IMG/VR virus record: IMGVR_UViG_3300025133_007827
Location: 1 to 52,764 of that record
Origin: a virus
Strand: one strand, 5' to 3'
DNA length: 52,764 nucleotides
The position numbers and the translations under genes are program-made. Positions 46,985-52,549 of the stretch are shown one piece after another (positions within the stretch are counted from its first letter, which is position 1; each line of letters begins with the position of its first letter). The notes beneath the pieces were generated by a model that was not told the DNA's origin, did not search any database, and saw only the letters and a program-made list of their open reading frames with translations.

Positions 46985-47700
46985 CAATCTGTATCCTGTA
47001 GCGCTGTCAGATAATACTCGCTAAAGTAGTCTCCTGAATCAAACACTATATGCGCTAAGCCTTTATCTGAAATTCTCAGTTTGGCTGATTGGCATTCTCT
47101 GTTTGCTGCGAGGATCTCTTTAAAGAAATTAGCATTAAAGGTTTGATTTTTCGATAAAAAGGTTTCATTGGATTTCACCGGAATGGTAACTGTATGTGAA
47201 TTTGTCTTAGAGTGTCCAATCACAATTTTAGTCGATCCATTATATATAACCGTGAAAGTCTCGACATCTGATAATGCTGACTTACCCCTGATGAAAGTAT
47301 TGATAAAGTTGCTGTCTACGTCGATTTCCGTTTCAAATTCTGGAAGGCTTTTTAGATCTGGTGGAGTGAGGAATACACTTAGATCTGCTAGCGCATAACT
47401 CACTTCAGAGTACCCACCAGTGATCTTTAACGCAATTGGTTTTTCATCTATCATGAGTATATTCATATCAAGGTTTCCGTCCATAACACTGAGCAGTCTG
47501 GACAGTAAATTAGTTGAATAAACCCCCAACACAGTATCCTGAAATTGTACGTTCTTCACGAGTACCTTTCCAAGTAAAGCCTTATCTGGTGTCATGAATG
47601 ATGTGTAGAGCTTGTCATCCTTGAAGACCCACTTCACAGAATCGACGGTTCCACCAAGACTGTATTTGAGTATAAAGCGTTCTAATTTAGTCTTATTCAT
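46984..47700 (-). CDS. Sliding DNA clamp (T4 gp45-like)
   Basis: About 238 residues from ATG 47700, 5 bases into the end of the previous gene; the frame extends to 47757 but this start is the first that leaves the neighbour intact. The repeated clamp pattern is visible: KWVFKDDKLYTSFMTPDKAL, FTVIYNGSTKIVIGHSK, FFKEILAANRECQSAKL, and the C-terminal GDYFSEYYLTALQD. The acidic, beta-rich sequence and length match gp45, which forms a trimeric ring. Adjacent to the clamp loader genes in T4 order. Confidence 0.85.
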   Translation of the reverse strand: MNKTKLERFILKYSLGGTVDSVKWVFKDDKLYTSFMTPDKALLGKVLVKNVQFQDTVLGVYSTNLLSRLLSVMDGNLDMNILMIDEKPIALKITGGYSEVSYALADLSVFLTPPDLKSLPEFETEIDVDSNFINTFIRGKSALSDVETFTVIYNGSTKIVIGHSKTNSHTVTIPVKSNETFLSKNQTFNANFFKEILAANRECQSAKLRISDKGLAHIVFDSGDYFSEYYLTALQDTD

Positions 47701-48187
47701 GCCACATGTCTCCCTCTTCGACATTATAACCACCGGCATACACTCCGGCACTATCACTACTTGCCAATATGAATTGAGCTACCCTAGAATCTCGTTCTAT
47801 CTTAGTCTTACCGATCAAATTATACAAAATCCCACAAACGTGTCCTTTAAAGCCAGAATCATACAGGCCACTCAATACAAATACCCCATTCCGATTCAGT
47901 GTTGATCTCGTCACCAACCATCCAACTACCCCTTCGGGAACTTCCACATAAGCCGGAGAAGTAAAATCATATGCACAATTAGGATCTAATGTCCACAAAC
48001 CACCCTCAGTTTGCATTTCTTTAACTCCTCTGTGGGTCTTCCCATTCCTGTATAAGGTGAATTCTCGATTCTGATTGATTTGTGACAACCCATCAGCTGC
48101 AATGTCTACAGCATTTGGTTGTACATCTTCTTCCGGAATTCCTCTGAGCCATCCTTCCTCTAGAGCTTGTTTTGGATTTATAAACAT
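47693..48187 (-). CDS. dCTP deaminase / dUTPase-like protein
   Basis: 164 residues. VGWLVTRSTLNRNGVFVLSG at about 88-107 (the RSS/T motif), LYDSGFKGHVCGILYNL at about 108-124 (DxGFxGxxxxxxxN) and RDSRVAQFIL (QxxF) match the dCTP deaminase/dUTPase superfamily. QPNAVDIAADGL at about 23-34 (QPxSxDxxxG) is typical of dCTP deaminases. The likely reaction is dCTP to dUTP or dUTP to dUMP, keeping uracil out of DNA and supplying dTMP. It overlaps the FolE2 stop by one base. Confidence 0.85.
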   Translation of the reverse strand: MFINPKQALEEGWLRGIPEEDVQPNAVDIAADGLSQINQNREFTLYRNGKTHRGVKEMQTEGGLWTLDPNCAYDFTSPAYVEVPEGVVGWLVTRSTLNRNGVFVLSGLYDSGFKGHVCGILYNLIGKTKIERDSRVAQFILASSDSAGVYAGGYNVEEGDMWHE

Positions 48188-49077
48188 TATCTGAGTCCTC
48201 CCTCAATCCCTTTATAGATTACTGAAATTGCATCGTGCTTGTGTAACGATTCATGATGTGCACATACGACCGAAAAGTCTAATACTCGATCATCACCGTC
48301 TAAAGCATCATATGCTATCCTGGCGGCATCTTCACAGAACAGTAGGTTCGAGCCATTCAATCGAGCAAATTCTGCTTCATCCTCACGTTTACACATGACG
48401 AGTACCTCTGTCGGTATAGCAGCTCTCATCATCTCAACTAAATCTTCAATCAGTAAAACGTTAGTGGGATCTAATTCCACAGTGACGGTTGCTGTACTGC
48501 GTTGACTGTGAGAAACAACCGGTTCACCGGTTTGTTCTGTCACATACTGCCCCATCTCATAAGAACACGGACAGGCACTGGAATACACATAATCGACTGT
48601 CAAGTATATTTTAACCTGATCATCGTCACCCATACGTCCTTCTAAGACTGAAGAGTAATATTGCCACCCCTCGAGATTTGACCTCAGGGACATTTGCGTC
48701 ATTGGGTAATCAAACCTAAACTTCACATACGACTCTTTAGAATCTAGTTTATCCTTGTAGTCTTTCAAAACATCTTGTAAGAGACTAACACTCAGACTCC
48801 CGTCTATGTGATCATATAGCGTTCTAACTAACCGCGACATGTTGATGCCCTTAGTCTCACTCGTCAGAGACACATATGCAGAAACATTAGTCTTCAGCTT
48901 GATGGGATCCCCACTCCTAGCTCGATATCGAATTGGGATCTCAACTCCCTTCACTCCCACTTTCTGTATGTTAGTTTCTGCTCCCCTAGCACTCAAATAA
49001 TTCTGAACGTCTGGAAGGTTGTCCCAATCTACATTGGTAGGTAGATCAGATTGATGTACTGCGTTTTTATTATTCAT
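48187..49077 (-). CDS. folE2: GTP cyclohydrolase FolE2 (type IB)
   Basis: 296 residues from the ATG at 49077, chosen because GGAGA lies 8 bases upstream; the frame reaches 49143. TKGINMSRLVRTL (FolE2 RGxHMSRxxE region), DYVYSSACPCSYEMGQ (conserved Cys metal ligand) and AHHESLHKHDAISVI (HExxH-like ending) match the family. FolE2 makes dihydroneopterin triphosphate from GTP, the first step of both folate and 7-deazaguanine synthesis. With QueD, QueE and DpdA-like genes nearby it most likely feeds the 7-deazaguanine route. Confidence 0.85.
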   Translation of the reverse strand: MNNKNAVHQSDLPTNVDWDNLPDVQNYLSARGAETNIQKVGVKGVEIPIRYRARSGDPIKLKTNVSAYVSLTSETKGINMSRLVRTLYDHIDGSLSVSLLQDVLKDYKDKLDSKESYVKFRFDYPMTQMSLRSNLEGWQYYSSVLEGRMGDDDQVKIYLTVDYVYSSACPCSYEMGQYVTEQTGEPVVSHSQRSTATVTVELDPTNVLLIEDLVEMMRAAIPTEVLVMCKREDEAEFARLNGSNLLFCEDAARIAYDALDGDDRVLDFSVVCAHHESLHKHDAISVIYKGIEGGLR

Positions 49078-49081
49078 AGGG

Positions 49082-49906
49082 CTATTCTCCATTATTAATT
49101 GTTGTCCATGCTGCAAAGTTATGGTCGACTGACTTGAGCTCATCGTCCGTCAGGACCTTATTAAAATCTAATTTTTCCATTACGATCTCATCCACATAAC
49201 CATCATGGATCTCATTTCCGGTATACCCATACACGAAAGGCATCGATGTGTCATTTGATCTGATAAATTTATAGTCCTGATCGTAATAGTATTGTAATTC
49301 ATTTACTCCTACATTATCTGAACCCAACAGATGCATCTGTTTTCCAAATACGTCAGGAGTCATCTTGTGCTCATGAAGAAAGTCTATACATTTTATTCTA
49401 CCTCTGCTGCAGTTACCTTCCTCATAATGGTTCCCAACAAAACTTTCCGGGACTGCAAGTTTGGAAAAGCCTATCACGTCAATATCTTCTAACCGCACTA
49501 ATCTTTCATAACAACCTAACCACTCATCTTCTGTTCTACCTTGTGGGATAGCCATGAACCATGTTGAGTCATATCTGTATGGATCCTTCTTCTGTACGTA
49601 TTTCATGAAATCCTTAACTGATGCTACTGTGTCCGGACCATTAAACAGAATGTCGATCGCACATATCTCATCTGGTTCTACCAGCTTGGCTGCATCCAGC
49701 ACAAGGTCCTGTGGTACTCCTCTACCCTCTTCTTCAAACTCAAATGCTGAGTTGTCCATGATTAAGTATTTCTTGGACTTCCTATAAAAGTCCGCATATT
49801 GTTTATCTTTGTGTATCATATGAGCCAGACAAAGATGTCTATCCCCTAGATTGGCATGGCTCTCCAAATGTGGAGTGCTAGTTATCATACAGATGTCAAT
49901 GTTCAA
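49082..49906 (-). CDS. DpdA-like transglycosylase (TGT superfamily), likely inserting 7-deazaguanine in DNA
   Basis: About 274 residues from a TTG at 49906 that has AAGGAGG 5 bases upstream; ATG alternatives are at 49888 and, without Shine-Dalgarno fit, 49966. KYLIMDNSAFEFEEE at about residue 47-61 and ICAIDILFNGPD near 81-92 resemble the two catalytic Asp regions of phage DpdA proteins (DNxAFE and a later Asp), in a TIM-barrel pattern with a STPHL start and GFSKLAVPES. DpdA swaps guanine for preQ0-type bases in DNA. No tRNA-TGT zinc site (CxCxxC) is seen. Confidence 0.72.
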   Translation of the reverse strand: MNIDICMITSTPHLESHANLGDRHLCLAHMIHKDKQYADFYRKSKKYLIMDNSAFEFEEEGRGVPQDLVLDAAKLVEPDEICAIDILFNGPDTVASVKDFMKYVQKKDPYRYDSTWFMAIPQGRTEDEWLGCYERLVRLEDIDVIGFSKLAVPESFVGNHYEEGNCSRGRIKCIDFLHEHKMTPDVFGKQMHLLGSDNVGVNELQYYYDQDYKFIRSNDTSMPFVYGYTGNEIHDGYVDEIVMEKLDFNKVLTDDELKSVDHNFAAWTTINNGE

Positions 49907-50255
49907 TGATTCCTCCTTGTATATCGTCTTCGAAGACAGAAACCTTCCAGTCTCTATATTCACCATATTTCTCGTTAAGTTGTTTAAGTATAGTCTCTGC
50001 TATCATCTCACAGCTAGATGGACCGAATCGCTTTATCCATTTCCCGGGCCACGAATTATGTATTATCTTCATCAACTCTACTCGTAGCATGATGAATTCT
50101 ATTTCTCTATCATGATGTTCGACTCCACACTCAACGTAAAAATGAAAGTCATGATGATGCTCATGTTTAAGAAATCCCACTTCTGGGAAATGTTTGTCTG
50201 CGTCAGGCCAATTATGAGTTCCCAGGACCGTATGTTTTACTTTGATTCTTGCCAT
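49896..50255 (-). CDS. 6-pyruvoyl-tetrahydropterin synthase-like protein (third PTPS/QueD relative)
   Basis: 119 residues, the pterin synthase fold in small form. LGTHNWPDA (first His), FLKHEHHHDFHFYVECGVEH (HxH-type zinc site) and FGPSSCEMIAETILKQL then KVSVFEDDIQGG (PTxE..V.E-like) are visible. Members of this subfamily with SCEMIA are of uncertain activity. The gene ends within the DpdA-like start region, so the two are coupled. It may act on the same pterin or deazapurine pathway. Confidence 0.7.
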   Translation of the reverse strand: MARIKVKHTVLGTHNWPDADKHFPEVGFLKHEHHHDFHFYVECGVEHHDREIEFIMLRVELMKIIHNSWPGKWIKRFGPSSCEMIAETILKQLNEKYGEYRDWKVSVFEDDIQGGIIEH

Positions 50256-50833
50256 TCCATTATAACCTCTATTTGATCATACAAATTTTTTAGTGATTTG
50301 CTATTATCAAGTATTGTATCACATTTTTCTTTAGCGGTGGAGTTTACAAAATCCTCAGAGATGTGTTTACTCTGTTCTTCTGTTAATCCTGTTCTACCTT
50401 CAATATAAGCCACATCGCCGCCATTATTCTTGATCCAATCAAATTCAATCTCAAATCTCACATCAGATACAACTATCTTAGGATTATGTTCGGACTTTAA
50501 TTTTAGATTTTCTACCTTTGCTCTTATTGATCTCTCGAGCCAATATGTGTCCGCAATTCTATATCTCATATCCATACCATACAGCTGTAAAAATCTTCTA
50601 ATGGAAAATTTTCCATGATTTACTATCTTAGCGTCCTGCATATCCCATAACGACAGTTCTTTGTTTTTAATAGTTTCAAGGGTCTTCAAATCCATATCAA
50701 GATACTTACATAAATCGACTTTCATGGCGTCAGCTGCTGCAACTCTATGATAACCATAGTTATCAACTAAATAATCAGCTACAGTGTCTTTACCTGAACC
50801 GCCTTTGCCACACATACCAATTATTTTCATCAC
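50237..50833 (-). CDS. Deoxynucleoside monophosphate kinase (T4 gp1-like)
   Basis: 198 residues. IIGMCGKGGSGKDTVADYL at about 4-22 is the Walker A loop typical of dNMP kinases, FSIRRFLQLYGMDMRYRIAD a middle conserved part, and IVVSDVRFEIEFDWIKNNGG with VRFxxE a late motif of the family. Makes dNDPs from dNMPs. Placed amid the deazaguanine genes, it could also phosphorylate a deazaguanine nucleotide, by context only. Overlaps both neighbours. Confidence 0.85.
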   Translation of the reverse strand: MMKIIGMCGKGGSGKDTVADYLVDNYGYHRVAAADAMKVDLCKYLDMDLKTLETIKNKELSLWDMQDAKIVNHGKFSIRRFLQLYGMDMRYRIADTYWLERSIRAKVENLKLKSEHNPKIVVSDVRFEIEFDWIKNNGGDVAYIEGRTGLTEEQSKHISEDFVNSTAKEKCDTILDNSKSLKNLYDQIEVIMEWQESK

Positions 50834-51588
50834 ACCTCCCTATCTGTATCGAATGCTATAATATGGTCTCTGCCTGTCATCCTGTACCCACGCTCAGCAC
50901 AGAGTTCAAATACCTTTGGATACATCTTTATCAGAGTCTCTCTGGTGTCTCCTGCCGGCATTATATATGTTTTGCTTTTCAGTATACCCAATTTGAGTCT
51001 AAATGCTTCTATCTCGTTGATGTTTTCTTCTGTTCCATCCCATACAGGTTTAAAATGATAATCTGAGTGGTATAATAAAAGTTTTTCAATAGTATCTAAA
51101 TTCAACCGGTATCTGTTATGCGTGTCAACAAATTTTTGGTCCACGACCTTACCTTTTGGTGTAACGGCTCCAATCACTGGAACTGAATTGCTGAACTTGG
51201 GGCTCAGACTGATCAGATCAATTGGTATATCTGTTTTGATCGCATGTGAACCTTCCGTTTCCATTGTGACAAAAATACCACGCTCATGAGCAAACCACAT
51301 CAGATCATTTACTAACTCTGGATGCATGCTTGGTGATCCACCTGTGAGCATCATTTCTTTGATGTGTGGATTATCATCATATATCTTATGAACGTCTCCC
51401 CGTATATAGCGCCCCTTCTCAGGATGGATACTGGTATACCAGCTATCACACCAACCACCTTCTCCAAAATAACATCTATGTGTACATCCTGTTGTTCTTA
51501 CTGCGATGGTTGGTATACCAAATCTGCTACCTTCTGATTGTACACATCTGTACAATTCTAGTATTGGAAGTATTTTATTTCCTGTCAC
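50830..51588 (-). CDS. queE: 7-carboxy-7-deazaguanine synthase (QueE-like radical SAM enzyme)
   Basis: 252 residues. QSEGSRFGIPTIAVRTTGC at about 17-35 is the QueE substrate-loop start and CTHRC at 35-39 plus Cys47 (in GGWCDS) form the 4Fe-4S cysteines, spaced CX3CX7C, wider than the common CX3CX2C. MMLTGGSPSMHPEL gives the SAM-binding GGSP. QueE rearranges 6-carboxy-tetrahydropterin to 7-carboxy-7-deazaguanine. It lies between QueD and the dNMP kinase. The odd Cys spacing is seen in other phage or bacterial QueE variants. Confidence 0.88.
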   Translation of the reverse strand: MTGNKILPILELYRCVQSEGSRFGIPTIAVRTTGCTHRCYFGEGGWCDSWYTSIHPEKGRYIRGDVHKIYDDNPHIKEMMLTGGSPSMHPELVNDLMWFAHERGIFVTMETEGSHAIKTDIPIDLISLSPKFSNSVPVIGAVTPKGKVVDQKFVDTHNRYRLNLDTIEKLLLYHSDYHFKPVWDGTEENINEIEAFRLKLGILKSKTYIMPAGDTRETLIKMYPKVFELCAERGYRMTGRDHIIAFDTDREV

Positions 51589-52097
51589 TATGCACCCTCA
51601 AATAAGTCTTCGTTCCATTCTCTATGTCCTTGACGATACGCCATATTGGTTTGAGTTTCACGTACTTCTACTCTAAAACACCAAAGTCTTTCTGCTTCTC
51701 CTGGTCCCCATCCATCCGGAATGAATACTCCATTTATATACTTGTATAATTGATCGGCTATGGCTTCACATCCAAGGTTTGGTAATATAGTAAGTCTTGC
51801 TAATCCTTGCTTTTCTAATTCTTTATATCGATCCATTTCTGGTTCATCTTCAGCTACTAATAATGTATGATCGAATTGCTCATCAAGAAGTTGTTTAAGT
51901 TCTCTGAGTCCACCATAATCGGCAACCCAATTCCTAACATCTAAATGATCTGTACCAAAATAGAATTTAAAGCTAAAACTATATCCATGGATTACATTAC
52001 AATGACTATCTGCTCTCCATTGTCTATATGCGACTGGAAACTTATCTACATATTCTTTTGTACTAACATATTTGTATGATACTGGTGTTGTATTCAT
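51588..52097 (-). CDS. queD: QueD-like 6-carboxy-tetrahydropterin synthase, copy 1
   Basis: 169 residues. FPVAYRQWRADSHCNVIHGYS at about 20-40 replaces the usual AAHRL..C..HGH by AYRQW, SHC and HGYS: the first zinc His and the last His are changed to Tyr, while Cys33, His32 and His37 remain. Then VADYGGLRELK (the DFxxLK), FDHTLLVAED (DHxxL) and the C-terminal RVEVRET (E) match QueD. Such AxRQWxADSHCxxxHGYxF forms are a recurring phage variety. Overlaps the QueE gene by 1 base. Confidence 0.82.
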   Translation of the reverse strand: MNTTPVSYKYVSTKEYVDKFPVAYRQWRADSHCNVIHGYSFSFKFYFGTDHLDVRNWVADYGGLRELKQLLDEQFDHTLLVAEDEPEMDRYKELEKQGLARLTILPNLGCEAIADQLYKYINGVFIPDGWGPGEAERLWCFRVEVRETQTNMAYRQGHREWNEDLFEGA

Positions 52098-52549
52098 TTT
52101 TGACTCCCTAAATAATATTCAGCCATATTATCGTTGTGTTCCCAAACCTGACATTTATGTATCCTCACTCGACCATCAGTTTCTGCTTGTATTACCTCAT
52201 CAAGTTGGTTTGCTATCAATTCTGCAAACTTCTCGCAACCGACACCACCTTCAAGTATCCTTAGATCAATTATACCACGATTGTGCATTTTCTTAAACAG
52301 TGAAAGTTCCGGATCATCGGATGATACACATGTTGTGTGATCAAACATATCCTTCAACCACTTTTTCACTCCATTACGTTTGAAACATCCAAAATCAATG
52401 ACCCATCCTTTATCATCTAATTCTCCTTCAAACCAAACCTTAAATGCAAATGCATACCCGTGCATCTTACTACAGTGTGAATCAGCCTTCCATTGACGGA
52501 ATGCCGTACTGTATCCTATAAATCGTTTATAACTTCTATACTTTCCCAT
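52094..52549 (-). CDS. queD: QueD-like 6-carboxy-tetrahydropterin synthase, copy 2
   Basis: 151 residues, a tandem paralogue of the previous gene: GYSTAFRQWKADSHCSKMHG at about 12-31 and AFKVWFEG, VIDFGCFKRN, MFDHTTCVSSDDPE and CQVWEHNDNMAEY follow the same order. The same Tyr replaces the first zinc His region and the HGH last His (HGY). A one-codon overlap links the two copies. Which of the two is the active enzyme cannot be told; they may act as partners or on different substrates. Confidence 0.82.
   Translation of the reverse strand: MGKYRSYKRFIGYSTAFRQWKADSHCSKMHGYAFAFKVWFEGELDDKGWVIDFGCFKRNGVKKWLKDMFDHTTCVSSDDPELSLFKKMHNRGIIDLRILEGGVGCEKFAELIANQLDEVIQAETDGRVRIHKCQVWEHNDNMAEYYLGSQK

Follow-up and report, generated by a model that had tools for sequence, protein, structure and literature searches.

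Here, we describe an operon for a predicted 7-deazaguanine DNA base at the end of a viral record of 52,764 bases (IMG/VR record IMGVR_UViG_3300025133_007827; the window below means this whole stretch); the record is a fragment that breaks off at the operon. The phage carrying the operon is of marine type. The minus strand carries all of the deazaguanine genes, with transcription running from right to left. In the order of transcription, they encode two copies of QueD, QueE, a deoxynucleoside monophosphate (dNMP) kinase, a protein of family phrog_17812, a DpdA-like protein, FolE2 and a dCTP-deaminase/dUTPase-like (DCD) protein (Table 1); past the DCD gene lie a probable sliding clamp gene and then a clamp loader gene. 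Because adjacent genes of the operon abut or share a few bases, a single transcript is likely. An earlier note on this DNA had recognized this gene cluster and had read it as a locus for 7-deazaguanine DNA modification with a DpdA-like enzyme of the tRNA-guanine transglycosylase (TGT) fold and without QueC in the window; profile and fold matches confirm the gene content and support this reading. We suggest, in addition, that the operon probably makes 7-deazaguanine without QueC, with the phrog_17812 protein as a decarboxylase of 7-carboxy-7-deazaguanine (CDG) and the DpdA-like protein inserting the resulting base.

Table 1. Genes of the operon in order of transcription, with the evidence for each assignment
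Product	Position	Strand	Evidence
QueD 1, 6-carboxytetrahydropterin (CPH4) synthase-like, phrog_2389	52094..52549	-	PTPS and phrog_2389 matches
QueD 2, second copy	51588..52097	-	PTPS and phrog_2389 matches
QueE, CDG synthase, radical S-adenosylmethionine enzyme	50830..51588	-	phrog_2076
Deoxynucleoside monophosphate kinase	50237..50833	-	phrog_139, PF21448
phrog_17812 T-fold protein, proposed CDG decarboxylase	49896..50255	-	Model, fold match, exclusion with QueC
DpdA-like base-exchange enzyme (predicted), TGT fold, phrog_20335, immuto/CP220 kind	49082..49906	-	Fold, motifs, homologues
FolE2-type GTP cyclohydrolase, first step	48187..49143	-	PF02649, NCBIfam
dCTP deaminase/dUTPase-like protein, frequent operon neighbour	47693..48187	-	Profile matches

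The phrog_17812 protein consists of 119 residues, and its family is annotated as of unknown function. By sequence, it matches phrog_17812 (E 4e-18) and, at 13.8 bits and under the cut-off, Pfam PTPS. Its AlphaFold model (predicted local distance difference test score, pLDDT, 95.7) has a T-fold, with E. coli QueD as the best match among solved structures (E 1.9e-5, TM-score 0.74). All 74 phrog_17812 sequences keep H14, H33, H35, H47, R50, E53, S81, C82, E83, E109 and D110; of these, H14, H33 and H35 are equivalent to the zinc ligands of QueD and E109 to its ligand-binding Glu, while the invariant Arg50 is additional relative to QueD. The earlier note had counted the protein as PTPS-like, and this holds for the T-fold but not for identity with QueD: the position of the catalytic Cys27 of QueD is Leu29 in 74 of 74 sequences and the D70-H71 dyad is missing, so a third QueD is ruled out. 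The family is essentially viral, with at least 587 IMG/VR contigs and, outside viral records, 11 metagenome-derived contigs among ∼85,000 genomes, several of them sharing the phage-like gene order. In Vibrio phage Bakedbeans (L009:7182-8333; L numbers are our labels for loci) and Chryseobacterium phage MA9V-3 (L004:7716-8597), it makes up the C-terminal part of a longer protein.

Comparison of gene content suggests that phrog_17812 replaces QueC. The loci compared here were picked by conserved peptide patterns and have flanks of at most 10 kb, and many of their contigs are fragmentary; a search using the DpdA protein alone returned one locus. First, QueC (PF06508) has no match within the 52.8-kb window or in the contigs of window-type relatives (10.6 to 57 kb). 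Loci of the window type (L001, L022, L102, L104 and L108) have the order QueD-QueE-kinase-17812-DpdA-FolE2, followed by the DCD gene where the contig extends. The nearest QueC-bearing relatives, L106 and L107, in which QueE is 84-86% identical, have the order QueD-QueE-DpdA-kinase-FolE-QueC-DCD; they lack phrog_17812 and carry a DpdA different from that of the window type. Second, in a sample of 80 loci chosen by QueE, 44 have QueC, 16 have phrog_17812, 20 have neither and none has both (Fisher p 2.7e-7, not corrected for kinship), and among 181 loci, 105 carry phrog_17812 and 48 QueC, again with none carrying both. No QueC match was found in 39 of 40 IMG/VR contigs with phrog_17812, and a complete QueC is present in none of the 11 distinct genomes among phage records that have phrog_17812 plus QueE; in phage X1, a QueC match is below the cut-off. 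Third, because the sampled loci are related to each other, we counted swaps between QueC and phrog_17812 on a QueE tree (a quick tree, as is the DpdA tree below), which requires at least 11 swaps, 7 of them forced by supported branches.

The exchange also bears on whether QueC is merely out of sight, supplied by the host or encoded in an unseen phage region to the right, as the earlier note had considered; the base would then be preQ0 or 7-amido-7-deazaguanine (ADG). The window is cut at the operon and queuosine-making hosts carry QueC, both of which would accommodate this scenario. However, the contigs of same-operon relatives are without QueC, including a 57-kb contig (L103) that starts inside phrog_17812 and spans the side missing from the window, and the DpdA sequence of the window type separates from that of QueC loci. 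We, therefore, regard an unseen QueC as very improbable.

The DpdA-like protein has no match by sequence in Pfam, NCBIfam or PDB. For its AlphaFold model, built from 62 sequences (pLDDT 94.6), all 50 Foldseek matches listed are tRNA-guanine transglycosylases (E from 9.6e-9, query-normalized TM-score, TMq, 0.58-0.65), and a fold unlike TGT was not seen among them. The Asp motifs that the earlier note had pointed to as DpdA-like are real features of the family: D51, D85 and D219 are each conserved in 62 of 62 sequences, and Q122 is conserved in 60 of 62. An hhalign comparison with E. coli TGT (E 0.013) pairs D85, Q122 and D219 with the TGT motifs, for which the catalytic reference residues are D102, D156, Q203 and D280 in Zymomonas numbering; D51 is placed by its DNS/DSG motif only. 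The model thus shows a TGT-fold protein, for which exchange of guanine for a 7-deazaguanine is predicted from the fold and the catalytic residues. Translation starts at a TTG at position 49906 after AAGGAGG, in agreement with the coordinates in the earlier note and in an overlap with the 3' end of the phrog_17812 gene. Relatives include proteins of Cellulophaga phage phiST, Vibrio phage D479, Aeromonas phage Ahp1 and Chryseobacterium phage MA9V-3; in Flavobacterium phage immuto, the homologue (E 3e-6) is annotated as DpdA. Campylobacter phages, CP220 among them, have proteins that share 44% identity with the immuto protein, and we take this small immuto/CP220 type to be the DpdA called DpdA3, of which the window protein may be a member. 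Net charge was uninformative as a test of DNA binding by DpdA, since E. coli TGT is also acidic. The motifs of phrog_10773 align with those of E. coli TGT (hhalign E 3.7e-6), and this family is, therefore, a second TGT-like one; it was not found in window-type loci.

These features also speak to the idea that the genes supply the host with queuosine or with folate/biopterin rather than modifying DNA. FolE2 and QueD families do occur in such pathways; however, the sequence of the TGT-fold enzyme of the operon is distant from those of tRNA TGT, the enzyme is related to phage DpdA, and the kinase and the replication neighbours (clamp and clamp loader, and DNA polymerase B in relatives) fit a role in DNA. 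We give almost no credence to a function in host supply.

The phylogeny of DpdA follows the choice between phrog_17812 and QueC. In a DpdA tree of 59 loci, the phrog_17812 group and the QueC group are split by a single change, whereas the QueE tree of the same loci requires six. The residues of DpdA that separate the two groups flank the catalytic motifs: positions 54-55 follow D51-N52, position 121 precedes Q122, and positions 146-153 lie in a loop that we take to be the match of the TGT motif GGLAVGE. Such differences at the active site would be expected if the free bases coming from phrog_17812 and QueC differed, with DpdA fitted to each.

We suggest the following pathway. As judged from family membership, FolE2 would convert GTP to dihydroneopterin triphosphate, QueD would form CPH4 and QueE would form CDG. 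The phrog_17812 protein, a T-fold protein of the zinc type, would then act on CDG at the step of QueC and yield 7-deazaguanine by decarboxylation. DpdA, whose active site would be adapted to this base, would swap guanine in DNA for 7-deazaguanine, and the loss of guanine N7 would shield the phage genome from restriction enzymes. QueC uses CDG as its substrate (PMC13329287); because phrog_17812 replaces QueC, its action on CDG is the simplest reading. Most likely, then, judging from the sequence comparisons, phrog_17812 acts on CDG and sets which base is inserted by DpdA.

The main rival holds that CDG itself is inserted, giving 2'-deoxy-CDG (dCDG) in DNA, and that phrog_17812 is accessory, e.g., a carrier passing CDG to DpdA. 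CDG is the final product of the recognized enzymes in an operon without QueC, and the same possibility was raised by Hutinet 2019 for the QueC-less phage Bipper (PMC6884629). This explanation, which we consider unlikely, leaves unexplained why the QueC-less state is constantly paired with an enzyme-like protein that has an invariant metal site and invariant Arg, Glu and Cys residues. The earlier note had also raised CDG as the inserted base in the absence of QueC. The absence stands; the inserted base is more likely plain 7-deazaguanine than CDG, given the replacement of QueC by phrog_17812, its recurrence on the QueE tree and the DpdA phylogeny that follows it.

Several observations weigh against a CDG decarboxylase that strictly takes the place of QueC. 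The exceptional one of the 40 IMG/VR contigs with phrog_17812 has a QueC match over 56 positions, and Vibrio phage D479 combines phrog_17812 with a partial match to the QueC family over 69 positions (32.8 bits). The DpdA split has an SH-aLRT (Shimodaira-Hasegawa-like approximate likelihood ratio test) support of only 86 in a quick tree. No T-fold decarboxylase is among the fold matches listed for phrog_17812. Finally, in many loci without the window-type DpdA, a glycosyltransferase gene adjoins phrog_17812, and because plain 7-deazaguanine is without an obvious sugar handle, a product other than 7-deazaguanine is possible. This last point raises the scenario in which phrog_17812 turns CDG into another C7 derivative, such as an ester, a reduced form or an acceptor for glycosylation. 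The glycosyltransferase is found in 0 of 48 QueC loci, as this scenario would have it, but in just 1 of 41 loci having both phrog_17812 and the window-type DpdA, and reduction or activation would seem ill-suited to a T-fold of 119 residues without a nucleotide- or flavin-binding motif. For the window, we consider another C7 derivative quite improbable, while the gene content of the loci with phrog_17812 and a glycosyltransferase suggests a sugar-bearing deazaguanine there. Such a pairing with a nearby glycosyltransferase occurs in L010-L013 (ACP17, Paride/PA5oct type, BUCT-ZZ01 and X1) and in ∼50 IMG/VR loci, many of them with phrog_10773.

The upstream enzymes are assigned by profile matches and conserved residues. 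FolE2 matches PF02649 (E 3.4e-69) and, with 262.9 bits, exceeds the NCBIfam FolE2 cut-off of 215; because its open reading frame overlaps the end of the DpdA gene, a start inside the frame is likely. QueE matches phrog_2076 (E 9.5e-46) without reaching NCBIfam equivalog cut-offs, has its cysteines in the arrangement C35-x3-C39-x7-C47, and shares 60-62% identity with its counterparts in Cellulophaga phage phiST and Flavobacterium phage immuto. QueD 2 and QueD 1 match PTPS with E 8e-15 and 2.5e-18 and phrog_2389 with E 6e-37 and 3e-36, respectively. Both copies keep the equivalents of Cys27, Asp70, His71 and Glu110; of the zinc triad H16, H31 and H33 they keep only H31 (F and Y replace the others in QueD 1), and because this triad is incomplete, we label them QueD-like, although their position within the operon agrees with QueD. 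Phage QueD proteins mostly are without two of the three E. coli QueD zinc ligands while the catalytic residues are kept, and Tyr is at position 33 in 133 of 143 of them. That phrog_17812 and a zinc-poor QueD are halves of one enzyme was rejected because zinc-poor QueD is also present in QueC phages without phrog_17812. Among the loci examined, two adjacent QueD copies occur besides the window only in L104, FolE2 is present in 18 (window counted), and FolE and FolE2 are never in the same locus. In 50,697 phage records, FolE2 has three matches, all unannotated; the FolE2-based version of the phage 7-deazaguanine operon is nearly absent from sequenced isolates.

The dNMP kinase points to a possible variation on the last step, in which the small DpdA exchanges the base of free deoxyguanylate rather than of DNA, the kinase feeds a 7-deaza-dGTP pool and the polymerase replaces G completely. 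In Z-genome phages, complete base replacement takes place during replication. A P-loop kinase lies at most four genes from DpdA in 19 of 54 loci versus 1 of 14 for the phrog_10773 type, which is only a hint of a nucleotide route; elsewhere, neighbours fitting such a route are MazG in phiST and a nucleotide pyrophosphohydrolase in immuto. A modified-dGTP route was formerly proposed for Campylobacter phages, hypothetical proteins of which are members of the window DpdA family, and the model of the 274-residue DpdA-like protein has no obvious additional DNA-binding domain. We hold this route to be rather doubtful.

Outside the operon, the ∼29 kb of the window from 14504 to 43411 are rich in sugar/glycan genes, i.e., two DegT aminotransferases, a PIG-L deacetylase, WbqC, a polysaccharide-synthesis epimerase, GT2, GT4 and GT61 glycosyltransferases, a uridine-kinase/aldolase fusion and a methyltransferase. 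In the relative L001 (1540-4269), a TonB-dependent-receptor-like protein of 909 residues adjoins DNA polymerase B, and a protein of equal length is found in the same place in L102, L108 and L022.

Phage DNA with 7-deazaguanines is already a known kind, and DpdA and protection against restriction are established for other 7-deazaguanines (PMC6884629). Like the window, the classical DpdA/preQ0 phages 9g, CAjan and Rosebush exchange a GTP-derived base into DNA by an enzyme of the TGT superfamily; unlike the window, they have FolE, QueC or Gat-QueC, and another DpdA family (PMC6884629). QueC or Gat-QueC, which marks preQ0/archaeosine (G+) phages, is present neither in the window nor in window-type relatives. 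In tubercidin synthesis, CDG is made and, as has been proposed, decarboxylated without QueC, similar to what we suggest here, except that the UbiD-type TubF acts on the CDG nucleotide and the pathway is that of an antibiotic (PMC6112128). Closer to the window, immuto and CP220 have the homologous small DpdA with a nucleotide kinase beside or near it, and immuto has a QueE that is 62% identical; however, in immuto QueC, QueF and a formyltransferase are present and phrog_17812 is absent. A QueF subgroup (L006, L129, L131, L136 and L168), which has QueC where the contig reaches, resembles immuto in carrying a formyltransferase-like gene that separates DpdA from the kinase. phiST (NC_020842, CGPG_00065-00071) shares with the window a GTP cyclohydrolase, QueE, QueD and phrog_17812, besides a P-loop kinase and a DpdA from the same family, and its complete 79-kb record likewise has no QueC; it differs in having FolE, a single QueD, a MazG gene and another gene order, and its DpdA is ∼30% identical.

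In 2023, Cui et al. reportedly described 2'-deoxy-7-deazaguanine (dDG) and dCDG in phages, predicted DpdL to be a CDG decarboxylase and defined a DpdA3 subfamily that is said to be able to replace all guanines. The reaction and product of DpdL match those that we suggest for phrog_17812, which is a candidate for DpdL. If the two are the same, the window belongs to the kind described by Cui et al., in a FolE2-based form. Because at least 587 viral contigs carry phrog_17812, QueC-free guanine replacement may rank among the commoner DNA modifications of aquatic phages. Altogether, our comparison names phrog_17812 as the probable switch for which 7-deazaguanine a phage builds, with the active site of its partner DpdA apparently altered to match.

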